Below are positions 19,745-28,210 of a stretch of 55,578 nucleotides of DNA, in pieces. A program made the translations under genes and the position numbers. Position 1 is the first letter of the stretch. The number at the start of each line of letters is the position of its first letter. The notes beneath the pieces are model-generated. The model saw only the letters and a list, made by a program, of their open reading frames with translations. It was not told where the DNA came from and searched no databases. This stretch comes from Cyanobacteria bacterium SIG27 (GTDB lineage Bacteria > Cyanobacteriota > Vampirovibrionia > Gastranaerophilales > Gastranaerophilaceae), in NCBI GenBank assembly GCA_015152565.1, contig SUTT01000010.1:1-55578 (forward strand), in the 5' to 3' direction.

Positions 19745-21886
19745 ATGATTAAACCAGAAAGCAAAAAAATGGTACTTACGGTTGGTGGGAAAACCGTAGA
19801 AATTGAAACAGGAAAATACGCTAAACAAGCAACTTCTTCTGTAACAGTAAAATGTGGCGGAACAATGTTATTCATCCACGCTACAGTTTCAAAAGAACCT
19901 AGAGTGGGAATAGATTTCTTCCCTTTACTAATCGATTACGAAGAAAGAATGTCTGCAATCGGTAAAATCCCAGGTGGATATACAAGAACTGAAGGCAGAA
20001 GCTCAGAAAAAGCAATTCTTATTTCAAGATTAATTGATAGACCAATTAGACCATTATGGCCTAAAGGATATAGAAACGACGTTCAAATTGTTTCTCAATT
20101 ATTTGCATACGACCAAGAAGAACAACCAGATATTTTATCAATCATTGGTGCTTCAACTGCATTGATGTTATCAGGCGCACCTTTCGAAGGACCTGTTGGC
20201 GCAGTTAGAGTTGGAAGAATTGATGGTCAATTCATCGCAAACCCAACACATAGCCAAGATTTAAAATCTGATATGAATATCGTTATTGCTGGTACTAAAG
20301 AATCAGTTATCATGGTTGAAGCTGGTTGCGATTTCGTTACAGAAGACGATATTATGGCAGCTGTTGAATTTGCACAAGTGGAAATTGCAAAACAATGCGA
20401 CGCTCAAATAGCATTTGCTAATGAATGTGGCGTAGTTCGTCAAGAATTTGTTAACCCACATGATACAACAGAATTGGCTAATATTATTCGTGAAACTGCT
20501 TATGATGCTGTAGTTGACGCTTATCATACAACAGATAGAGATGCTAGAAGCGAAAAATTAGACGCTATTAAAACTGTTGTTAAAGAAAAAATTGAAGCGC
20601 TAGGTGATGAACACCCTATTGCTAAAATGATTGAAGAAACAGGAATTGACTTCGTTGCTGAAGAATTCAAAGCTCTTGAAAAGAAAATCATGAGAGCAAT
20701 GATTAAAAACGAAGGTATTAGAGCTGACGGTAGAAAAACCTTTGAAGTTCGCCCAATTTGGTGCGAAGTTGGAGTTCTTCCAGGAGTTCATGGAAGTGCC
20801 GTATTTACTCGTGGACAAACTCAAATTTTATCAGTTGCAACTCTAGCTGGCCCAGGTATGGCACAAGAACTTGATGGCGTTGACCCTGTTAAATCGAAAG
20901 ATTATATGCATAAATACATCTTCCCAGGTTTCTCTGTTGGTGAAGTTAAACCACTTAGAGGTCCAGGACGTCGTGAAGTAGGTCACGGCAACTTAGCAGA
21001 AAGAGCTAATGTACCAGCTCTTCCATCTAAAGACGATTTCCCTTATGCAATTAGAGTAACATCAGATGTTTTAGAATCAAACGGTTCAACTTCAATGGGC
21101 TCAACTTGTGCTTCATCTATGGCTTTAATGGACGCTGGTGTACCTGTTAAATGTATGATTGGTGGCGTTGCAATGGGTTTAATCCACGAAGATGACGCTG
21201 ATATCGTATTAACAGATATTCAAGGTATTGAAGACTTCTTAGGTGATATGGACTTTAAAGTTACTGGTAACTCAGAAGGTATCACTGCACTTCAAATGGA
21301 TATGAAAATTAAAGGTATTTCTAATCCAACACTAAGAAGAGCATTAGCACAAGCAAAAGACGGTAGATTATATATCATGGAATGCATGAAAGAAGCAATC
21401 AGCGCTCCAAGAGCTGAAATTTCTCCTAATGCTCCTAGATTATTATCAATGACAATACCTCAAGAAGATATCGGAACAGTAATTGGACCTGGCGGTAAAA
21501 CAATCAGAGGTATCATTGAAGCAACTGGTGCTGAAATCGATATTCAAGATGATGGCAAAGTTACAATTACATCAAATGATAAAGATGGCGCTGAGCTAGC
21601 TCAAAAAATGATTAAAGATTTAACATTTAAAGCTGAAGTTGGAATGATTTGCAAAGGTAAAGTAGTAAGAATTATTCCTATCGGTGCTTTTGTTGAATTA
21701 GCTCCAGGTAAAGACGGTATGGTTCACATTTCTCAAATCTGCAACGAAAGAATTGAAACAATCGAACCGCACTTAACTATTGGTCAAGAAGTAGTTGTTA
21801 AAGTTCAAAAAATCGACGATAAAGGTAGAGTGAACTTAACAATTAAAGGTTTGACTGAAGAGGAAAAAGCGCAAGCCGGAGTGTAG
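19745..21886 (+). CDS. pnp: Polyribonucleotide nucleotidyltransferase (PNPase)
   Basis: PNPase degrades RNA from the 3' end using phosphate and can add tails. The 713 residues show two RNase PH domains joined by a helical domain, with KIPGGYTRTEGRSSEKAILI and RLIDRPIRPLWPKGY in the first, and FPGFSVGEVKPLRGPGRREVGHGNLAERA and STCASSMALMDAGVPVK plus GDMDFKVTGNSEGITALQMD (catalytic Asp) in the second. A KH domain (IGTVIGPGGKTIRGI) and an S1 domain (GKVVRIIPIGAFVELAPGKDGMVHIS) follow. It has its own promoter and a terminator right after the stop. Confidence 0.98.
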   Translation: MIKPESKKMVLTVGGKTVEIETGKYAKQATSSVTVKCGGTMLFIHATVSKEPRVGIDFFPLLIDYEERMSAIGKIPGGYTRTEGRSSEKAILISRLIDRPIRPLWPKGYRNDVQIVSQLFAYDQEEQPDILSIIGASTALMLSGAPFEGPVGAVRVGRIDGQFIANPTHSQDLKSDMNIVIAGTKESVIMVEAGCDFVTEDDIMAAVEFAQVEIAKQCDAQIAFANECGVVRQEFVNPHDTTELANIIRETAYDAVVDAYHTTDRDARSEKLDAIKTVVKEKIEALGDEHPIAKMIEETGIDFVAEEFKALEKKIMRAMIKNEGIRADGRKTFEVRPIWCEVGVLPGVHGSAVFTRGQTQILSVATLAGPGMAQELDGVDPVKSKDYMHKYIFPGFSVGEVKPLRGPGRREVGHGNLAERANVPALPSKDDFPYAIRVTSDVLESNGSTSMGSTCASSMALMDAGVPVKCMIGGVAMGLIHEDDADIVLTDIQGIEDFLGDMDFKVTGNSEGITALQMDMKIKGISNPTLRRALAQAKDGRLYIMECMKEAISAPRAEISPNAPRLLSMTIPQEDIGTVIGPGGKTIRGIIEATGAEIDIQDDGKVTITSNDKDGAELAQKMIKDLTFKAEVGMICKGKVVRIIPIGAFVELAPGKDGMVHISQICNERIETIEPHLTIGQEVVVKVQKIDDKGRVNLTIKGLTEEEKAQAGV

Positions 21887-21894
21887 CCGTTAAG

Positions 21895-21927
21895 AAAACG
21901 ACAAATCATTGAGATTTGGCGTTTTTA
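21895..21927 (+). terminator. Rho-independent terminator of pnp
   Basis: AAAACGACAAATC pairs with GATTTGGCGTTTT (one A-G mismatch) around ATTGA, and ends in TTTTT. Confidence 0.85.
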
Positions 21928-21948
21928 GGCGAAACTATCGATGAGCGT

Positions 21949-22151
21949 CGTGGGACGAAGTCCCTCAGGAGCAATCCCAAGTCTAGTGAGCTTAGCCAGA
22001 CTTGGCTTAGCGAACGACGACGAGGGCAAAGGTGTGTAAAGCTCGTGACGGCAGACCGATGAGGTCTGGCGGACAGAGCGGATACCGTACCAATGCGACG
22101 TGGGACGAAGTCCCTCAGGAGCAATCCCAAGTCTAGTGAGCTTAGCCAGAC
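21949..22151. repeat. 53-bp direct repeats flanking a 97-bp structured insert
   Basis: The same 53 bases occur at 21949-22001 and 22099-22151 without a mismatch. Each copy has a GGGAC-GAA-GTCCC hairpin and the motif CAGGAGCAA. Between them is a 97-base segment with the core AAGGTGTGTAAA (22029-22040), a hairpin CAGACC-GATGA-GGTCTG, and ACCGTACCAA (22084-22093). The same core order, at almost the same distances from flanking direct repeats, is seen at 28026-28167. The segment is GC-rich and the open frame across it on the minus strand is just the translated repeat. Confidence 0.7.
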
Positions 22152-22202
22152 ATAATTCGCAAAATATAATTTAATAAAAACGCTTCTTTTCAAGAAGTGT
22201 TT

Positions 22203-22478
22203 TTATTTTTTATTTTTTTTAAATTTTTCTACATAAAAAATATAATGCTTTTGCTTAATCTTTTCTTTTTCCAAAAAATCCAATAATTCCTTTACTTCTT
22301 TTAATGTATAAAATTTTTCTTTAGTTAAAAAAAGAATAAAACATATTTTATTTAAATCTTTAATACTATACAATTTAAGATTTTTTACCTCGCAAGGTTT
22401 TATTAATCCATATTTTACATATCTTTTGACTGTATTTGGATGAACATTAACATAAAGGGTCAGAACACCCAACGTCAT
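22203..22478 (-). CDS. MerR-like small transcription regulator
   Basis: The protein begins MTLGVLTLYVNVHPNTVKRY and goes on VKYGLIKPCE, a MerR-type winged helix-turn-helix (V-H-P-N-T-V-K-R-Y matches the recognition helix). A Lys-rich C-terminal helix (LKEVKELLDFLEKEKIKQK) could be a short dimerisation coil; there is no effector domain. The ATG at 22478 was chosen because the fold starts there; a TTG at 22502 would add eight residues. It is divergent from the XRE gene at 22563 and both may share the CTAGTA boxes. GTATAAT lies only a few bases before the ATG. Confidence 0.7.
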   Translation of the reverse strand: MTLGVLTLYVNVHPNTVKRYVKYGLIKPCEVKNLKLYSIKDLNKICFILFLTKEKFYTLKEVKELLDFLEKEKIKQKHYIFYVEKFKKNKK

Positions 22479-27584: not shown

Positions 27585-28049
27585 ATGAAATTAGGAAAAA
27601 TTGATTTCTGTAAAATTCAAAAAATGACTGCAATAGAGATTGTCGTTCTTGTTTTAGTCTTTTTTGCAATCGGAATATACTATTCGCCTAATTTTATGCA
27701 CAAAAAAGATGTCATGATGGCAGCTAAAATCAAAGCAGATAACGCTATATTTACCGCAAAAGCACTGGAAGAATTTGCCCAAGATAAAAACGCTAAAGCG
27801 TCAACTATCGCAAAAAAAGTAGCTGATGAATTAAACGTTACAACAAAAAATCCTTACGACAAAAAGCAAGACGCTTATTCTTTTAATGAAGAATGCAAAA
27901 GCTGCAACAACGTTAGCTATGACGACAACAATGAAATGATTATTCTTACAACTTTTAATAAAAAAGGCGAATTAATCGCAAGAACGGTTATCAAACCGCC
28001 ATCTTTTGTTGTGTATAGTATCGAGGATGATAAAAAATCCAAAAAATGA
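27585..28049 (+). CDS. Pilin-like membrane protein without a canonical prepilin site
   Basis: A 154-residue protein with a single membrane segment near residues 16-38 (TAIEIVVLVLVFFAIGIYYS). The order T-x-x-E, a hydrophobic run, PNFM, then AAKIKADNAIFTAKALEEFA is that of type IV pilins and pseudopilins, including Glu5. The usual Gly-Phe cleavage site is replaced by Lys-Met (QKMTAIE), so prepilin peptidase processing is doubtful. The soluble part has a Cys pair (ECKSC) and is predicted to be small and mixed. It follows the glycosidase gene by three bases and ends inside a repeat unit (DDKKSKK). Confidence 0.6.
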   Translation: MKLGKIDFCKIQKMTAIEIVVLVLVFFAIGIYYSPNFMHKKDVMMAAKIKADNAIFTAKALEEFAQDKNAKASTIAKKVADELNVTTKNPYDKKQDAYSFNEECKSCNNVSYDDNNEMIILTTFNKKGELIARTVIKPPSFVVYSIEDDKKSKK

Positions 28050-28167
28050 CAATTTTTTGAGATTTTTTGAATCCGAGCCAAGGTGTGTGAAACTAATCCT
28101 GTATGCGAGAGAGCATACAGGATTAGTTGAAACCGTACCAACAAAGATGATAAAAAATCCAAAAAAT
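28026..28167. repeat. 22-bp direct repeats flanking a 98-bp structured insert
   Basis: The same 22 bases lie at 28026-28047 and 28146-28167; the first copy covers the end of the pilin-like gene. The 98 bases between them hold AAGGTGTGTGAA (28080-28091), a perfect 16-pair hairpin (28091-28128, loop GAGAGA) and ACCGTACCAA (28132-28141). The core is 33 bases from the left repeat and four from the right, against 27 and five in the element at 21949-22151. The repeats differ in sequence between the two loci, the core does not. Confidence 0.7.
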
Positions 28168-28178
28168 AGATATAGATT

Positions 28179-28210
28179 AAGCCTGCATGCAAGATAACAT
28201 GCAGGCTTTA
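28179..28210. terminator. Bidirectional terminator between the pilin-like gene and rsfS
   Basis: AAGCCTGCATG pairs with CATGCAGGCTT around CAAGATAA, with T/A runs on both sides. Its stem and loop closely resemble the hairpin inside the insert just upstream. Confidence 0.8.

Follow-up and report, generated by a model that had tools for sequence, protein, structure and literature searches.

A two-hairpin repeat of Gastranaerophilales that is probably a small non-autonomous mobile element and duplicates long target stretches of variable length

The window, a stretch of 55,578 nucleotides, is contig C7 of a 1.84-Mb genome (G000) from Candidatus Gastranaerophilales, an uncultured gut bacterium. 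It carries two copies of an element of about 100-150 bp that consists of two adjacent hairpins, D1 and D2, sometimes joined by a third hairpin, D3. On the forward strand right behind pnp lies a repeated hairpin module (21884-21944), which has relatives at G000:C24 and after pnp in the congener G012. It is followed by a left D3 module, GCGTCGTGGGACGAAGTCCCTCAGGAGCA (21945-21973; one mismatch to the D3 pattern), a CCC/GGG-closed D1 hairpin predicted by folding, whose family recurs elsewhere (21976-22027), the D2 core hairpin GGTGTG...ACCGTACC, recognized by motif and covariance model (22031-22091), a right D3 module (22095-22123), and, once more, the 5' half of D1 (22124-22151). As an earlier note on this DNA had described, two perfect 53-mers, at 21949-22001 and 22099-22151, bracket 97 bases (22002-22098), and the second D1 5' half forms the right end of this repeat. 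A repeat search returned direct copies of 57 nt with one mismatch (21945-22001 and 22095-22151), in which the last 53 nt are identical; their start-to-start spacing of 150 yields the insert length of 97 nt. Beyond the right repeat, on the same strand, follows a likely transcription terminator hairpin with 16-nt arms and a T run (22173-22207). The earlier note had placed the repeats just after the pnp terminator, but the hairpin at about 21887-21930 is a repeated module that recurs at other loci, and the hairpin at 22173-22207, 3' of the right repeat, is the likely terminator.

Within the 53-mer, 25 nt belong to D3 and the other 28 nt comprise AT and the D1 5' half; both parts recur elsewhere together with the element. 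Since it is thus wholly element-family sequence, the copy at 22 kb does not by itself prove target duplication; its repeats may represent the target duplication of an older copy or the remnant of a tandem array. In most other congeners pnp is followed by a plain terminator, and in G012 by a different module and then a degenerate repetition of the end of pnp. Other hairpin modules and a tandem array duplicating the pnp end were observed behind the gene in G003 and G024 (L243 and L263), which makes the 3' end of pnp a recurrent landing site within the genus.

The second copy follows a gene encoding 154 amino acids. On the forward strand, the native 3' end of this gene (DDKKSKK) forms the left target duplication (28026-28047), followed by a 98-bp insert (28048-28145) composed of the 3' arm of D1, D2 (28082-28139), and AACAAA, and by the right target duplication (28146-28167), in which the reading frame would end with TAG. 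A terminator-like hairpin lies behind it (28180-28209). The bracketing 22-mers are identical to each other and unrelated to the 53-mers at 22 kb, in agreement with the earlier note, which had also pointed to the similar layout of the two copies. Indeed, the inserts measure 98 and 97 nt, and both copies show the order hairpin, AAGGTGTGTRAA, hairpin, ACCGTACCAA, 4-5 nt, right-hand repeat, with CCAA separated from the right repeat by 5 nt at 22 kb and 4 nt at 28 kb. Both form the same two hairpins from differing sequences (folding z of -4.8 and -10.4). Orthologs of the 154-amino-acid gene were found in all 27 congeners, and the element follows the gene in none of them. The DDKKSKK tail is considered native because the orthologs end in related tails, such as DEDKKNN. 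No homolog of the next gene downstream was found beside these orthologs, so only one side of this empty site is anchored. The 28-kb copy is a better example of target duplication than the 22-kb copy.

Across its copies, the D2 core is a hairpin of 52-62 nt in which GGTGTG/CGTACC closes a variable double stem. D1, a hairpin of about 50 nt just 5' of D2, exists in several sequence families, including CCCGAG...GAGGGC forms and an A/T-rich form. D3 (GCGACGT...CAGG) was found 3' of D2 at 19 loci, and a stricter D3 pattern occurs 16 times in G000; a solo D3 module, GCGACGTAGAAATCTTTGATTTCACAGGAGCA, is located at positions 120-151, near the left end of the window. The outer helix of D2 is invariant and thus uninformative by itself. 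In the variable helices, covariation reached 0.311 versus 0.111 in shuffled alignments (0/500), with all slid controls far lower. Among 46 distinct D2 cores, 90.6% of cells pair (31-56% in slid controls), and 80 cells are changed on both sides, versus 26 in shuffles. At an orthologous intergenic site of G000 and G012, whose flanks are about 78-83% identical, six base pairs differ at both positions, 29 are the same, two carry one-sided changes, and three are broken. The six compensatory changes imply that the structure appears to have been kept after insertion. Reading of the sequences revealed no terminal inverted repeats; at locus L070, for example, CCCGAGC... at one end is not the inverse of ...ACCGTACCAC at the other. 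An interpretation of the D1 3' arm as a locus-specific inverted copy of the target was clear in two of five AT-rich copies and is kept as a lead only, with L002 and L133 no better than cross-pairs and L017 marginal.

The element is dispersed. A genome-wide search with the motif proposed in the earlier note gave six matches in G000 and none to a reversed-pattern control, so the shared layout is not due to chance. A slightly relaxed motif detected 17 copies in G000 and was present in 21 of 28 congeners. With a covariance model of the core, 38 matches were obtained in G000, and matches were found in 25 of 117 genomes of the family, being multicopy in several other genera, with some weak single matches. 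The element is therefore common in the genus and patchy across the family. Contig ends hold many copies, and the element accounts for the breaks that these assemblies show at multicopy repeats. Six pattern matches in viral contigs were dismissed as chance because none has the hairpin when the sequence is read; the two longest are identical and sit inside a phage coding gene. An Rfam scan of the window retrieved no family at gathering score, the element region gave weak chance-level matches only, and matches within 16 element-bearing loci were confined to tRNA, tmRNA, and RNase P. Our literature search found no paper on such repeats in Gastranaerophilales or Vampirovibrionia.

Matching left and right flanks, defined as a direct repeat scoring at least 15, were present at 58 of 99 distinct loci, compared to 7.0% of mispaired controls, in which left and right flanks of different loci were combined. 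As the similarity of mispaired flanks is partly the D1 family itself, the excess of matching flanks is locus-specific. Chance motif matches in other phyla had a flank repeat in 0 of 53 cases. No clear repeat was detected at 41 of the 99 loci; these may be old copies, may lie at contig ends, or may have originated in another way. Clean target duplications vary in length from 22 to 44 bp. Many flanking repeats, the 53-mer included, are built of the element's own D1 and D3 modules, which counts against target duplication.

The cleanest cases are tRNA genes, at which an element of about 115 bp lies between two copies of the leader and the first 10-15 nt of the tRNA. At L070, tRNA-Pro(tgg) is followed by a perfect 37-bp repeat (leader plus CGGGATGTAGCGCA), an element of about 115 bp, and the second repeat copy, leading into an intact tRNA-Pro(cgg). 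At L019, involving another tRNA, the repeat is 44 bp long, and another core end stands ahead of its left copy. Similar duplications were found at tRNA-Ala and tRNA-Leu, and element copies also adjoin RNase P RNA, tmRNA, tRNA-Lys, and tRNA-Phe. The tRNA-Pro locus was extracted from 28 congeners for a comparison between species, not strains. At least 10 sites have a second leader and tRNA 5' part upstream, around various inserts; in this comparison, repeat scores of exactly 15 at distance 30 are an overlap artifact. Many congeners possess a single leader copy, i.e., an empty site, and the spacer between two tRNA-Pro genes, about 20 bp at L066, is filled at L070. None of the empty sites examined held both repeats.

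Insertions are biased in orientation. An ORF ends within 150 bp upstream of the element at 31 loci, and 27 of these are co-directional according to a simple ORF caller, with long spurious ORFs crossing some GC-rich copies. The core typically lies some 50-60 nt behind the stop codon, where the loci form a cluster; D1 accordingly starts near the stop codon. At the tRNA sites examined, the tRNA lies downstream of the element on the same strand.

Because host-sequence copies as long as 22-44 bases stand on both sides of the element at tRNA genes and gene ends, we favor as the probable explanation a small non-autonomous structured mobile element that generates long, variable target duplications. 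The suggestion of the earlier note that the element enters with, or causes, duplication of the site is supported for the family, given the locus-specific repeats, the host sequence duplicated at tRNA genes and at 28 kb, and the single-copy tRNA-Pro sites. It is weaker for the 22-kb copy, since a 53-mer made of element modules could equally reflect a tandem-array arrangement. The element would insert co-directionally into transcribed sites, just past stop codons and, in tRNA genes, within the D-arm region. We infer that each strand of the target is nicked once, the two nicks lying about 22-44 nt from each other, that the element is joined to one end, and that repair of the gap copies the overhang and so produces the direct duplication; an enzyme would be supplied in trans, and the element would be recognized via its hairpins. 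Tandem arrays, and probably also the 53-bp repeat at 22 kb, might result when a later insertion hits an existing copy, or from unequal recombination between repeats. No mobilizing enzyme was found among the 28 congeners, where reverse transcriptase (RT) and Y1 transposase (Y1_Tnp) were both rejected as candidates, as the distribution of neither follows that of the element.

It is less likely, in our estimate rather unlikely, that the element is a SINE-like retroelement, in which target-primed reverse transcription, by an RT provided in trans, would write a two-hairpin RNA into a nicked target. Long variable duplications, lack of terminal inverted repeats, a conserved 3' hairpin combined with a variable 5' part, and co-directional insertion into transcribed sites are consistent with such a mode, and RVT_1 (RT) domains are encoded in 12 of 28 congeners, G000 among them. 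However, near-complete element-bearing genomes such as G001, G023, and G027 gave no RT match, the RTs present are apparently of retron, DGR, or defense types rather than group II or LINE-like, and an autonomous partner was not found. One RT of G000 (L272, G000:C10:830-1462) is, by eye, fused to an AlbA/Schlafen-like domain (NSNSGGTLLLGVED) and is probably a defense RT. With similarly low probability, one may speculate about a bacterial SINE-like element whose two-hairpin RNA would undergo RNA-based or RNA-guided integration at tRNA genes and gene ends, yielding 20-45-bp duplications with the help of an unrecognized trans-acting enzyme and with target-complementary segments as a guide.

Just as doubtful is a resident structured RNA or 3'-end module that spread by recombination and slippage and left the repeats as tandem-array remnants. 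In line with this, the 22-kb 53-mer consists wholly of D3 and D1, many loci have the arrangement D1-D2-D1, tandem arrays with units of 106-114 bp occur, and the compensatory changes between the two species at one orthologous site are consistent with constraint. Such spreading leaves unexplained why tRNA leader and 5' part, or the gene end at 28 kb, are duplicated around single copies, and why empty sites exist. Very improbable and disfavored is mobilization of a single-stranded-DNA hairpin by an HUH-type transposase, in the way that RAYTs move REPs: strong hairpins, intergenic location, and REP/BIME-like tandem arrays would fit, but Y1_Tnp (PF01797) was detected in one of 28 congeners and is absent from G000, and IS200/IS605-type insertion is not known to leave a target duplication.

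Returning to the favored small mobile element, several known systems share part of its properties. REP/BIME sequences with RAYT (GTAG REPs; PMC3733652) are likewise small, structured, multicopy intergenic repeats with tandem combinations and proposed mobilization in trans; in contrast, our element has a larger two-hairpin unit and long target duplications, and Y1 transposase is almost absent. Neither the GTAG nor the CGTC tag that accompanies the 20-40-bp palindrome of a REP was found among its conserved positions. Bacterial MITEs are similarly short, non-coding, dispersed, and flanked by target duplications, but the element lacks terminal inverted repeats and its duplications are variable (22-44 bp) instead of short and fixed. 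Eukaryotic SINEs and target-primed retroelements resemble it in their structured RNA-like sequence, variable duplications of tens of bp, and association with tRNA genes; unlike in SINEs, the tRNA is here the target and not part of the element, and no suitable RT or autonomous partner was found. The very small mobile repeated elements of cyanobacteria (Elhai et al. 2008, as cited in PMC3733652) are, as far as the citation tells, also very small, repeated, and from the same broad phylum. The element acts like a small non-autonomous mobile element but departs from the REP/RAYT and MITE definitions tested, which makes it a variant of small non-autonomous repeats. We could not match it to any known element type, and its insertion signature may constitute a class of its own. 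Long variable duplications without inverted repeats are unusual among bacterial mobile elements and suggest a different insertion chemistry, insertion into tRNA genes that are restored by the duplication would illustrate a way for such an element to exploit essential sites, and the element provides an anchor for finding the missing enzyme.

Further observations concern the tRNA sites. After tRNA-Lys (L161, G000:C42), an apparent decayed tRNA-Lys copy lies downstream of the element. At several of the sites L022, L029, L145, L189, L066, L114, and L134, the post-core segment is complementary to the target (GATGTGG/CCACATC, CTGTGG/CCACAG, GCGCAGCTTG/CAAGCTGCGC), and might serve as a guide or form a compensating stem. 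Another compact hairpin insert (AGGGACCCC...TGGGGGTGCGCAAATCCCGAGAG) occurs at the same tRNA site upstream of tRNA-Pro in L288, L292, L294, L300, L303, and L305; it is also flanked by leader and tRNA 5' duplications in several genomes, and there is complementarity between the insert's 3' end and the 5' end of the tRNA (CGGGAT/ATCCCG).
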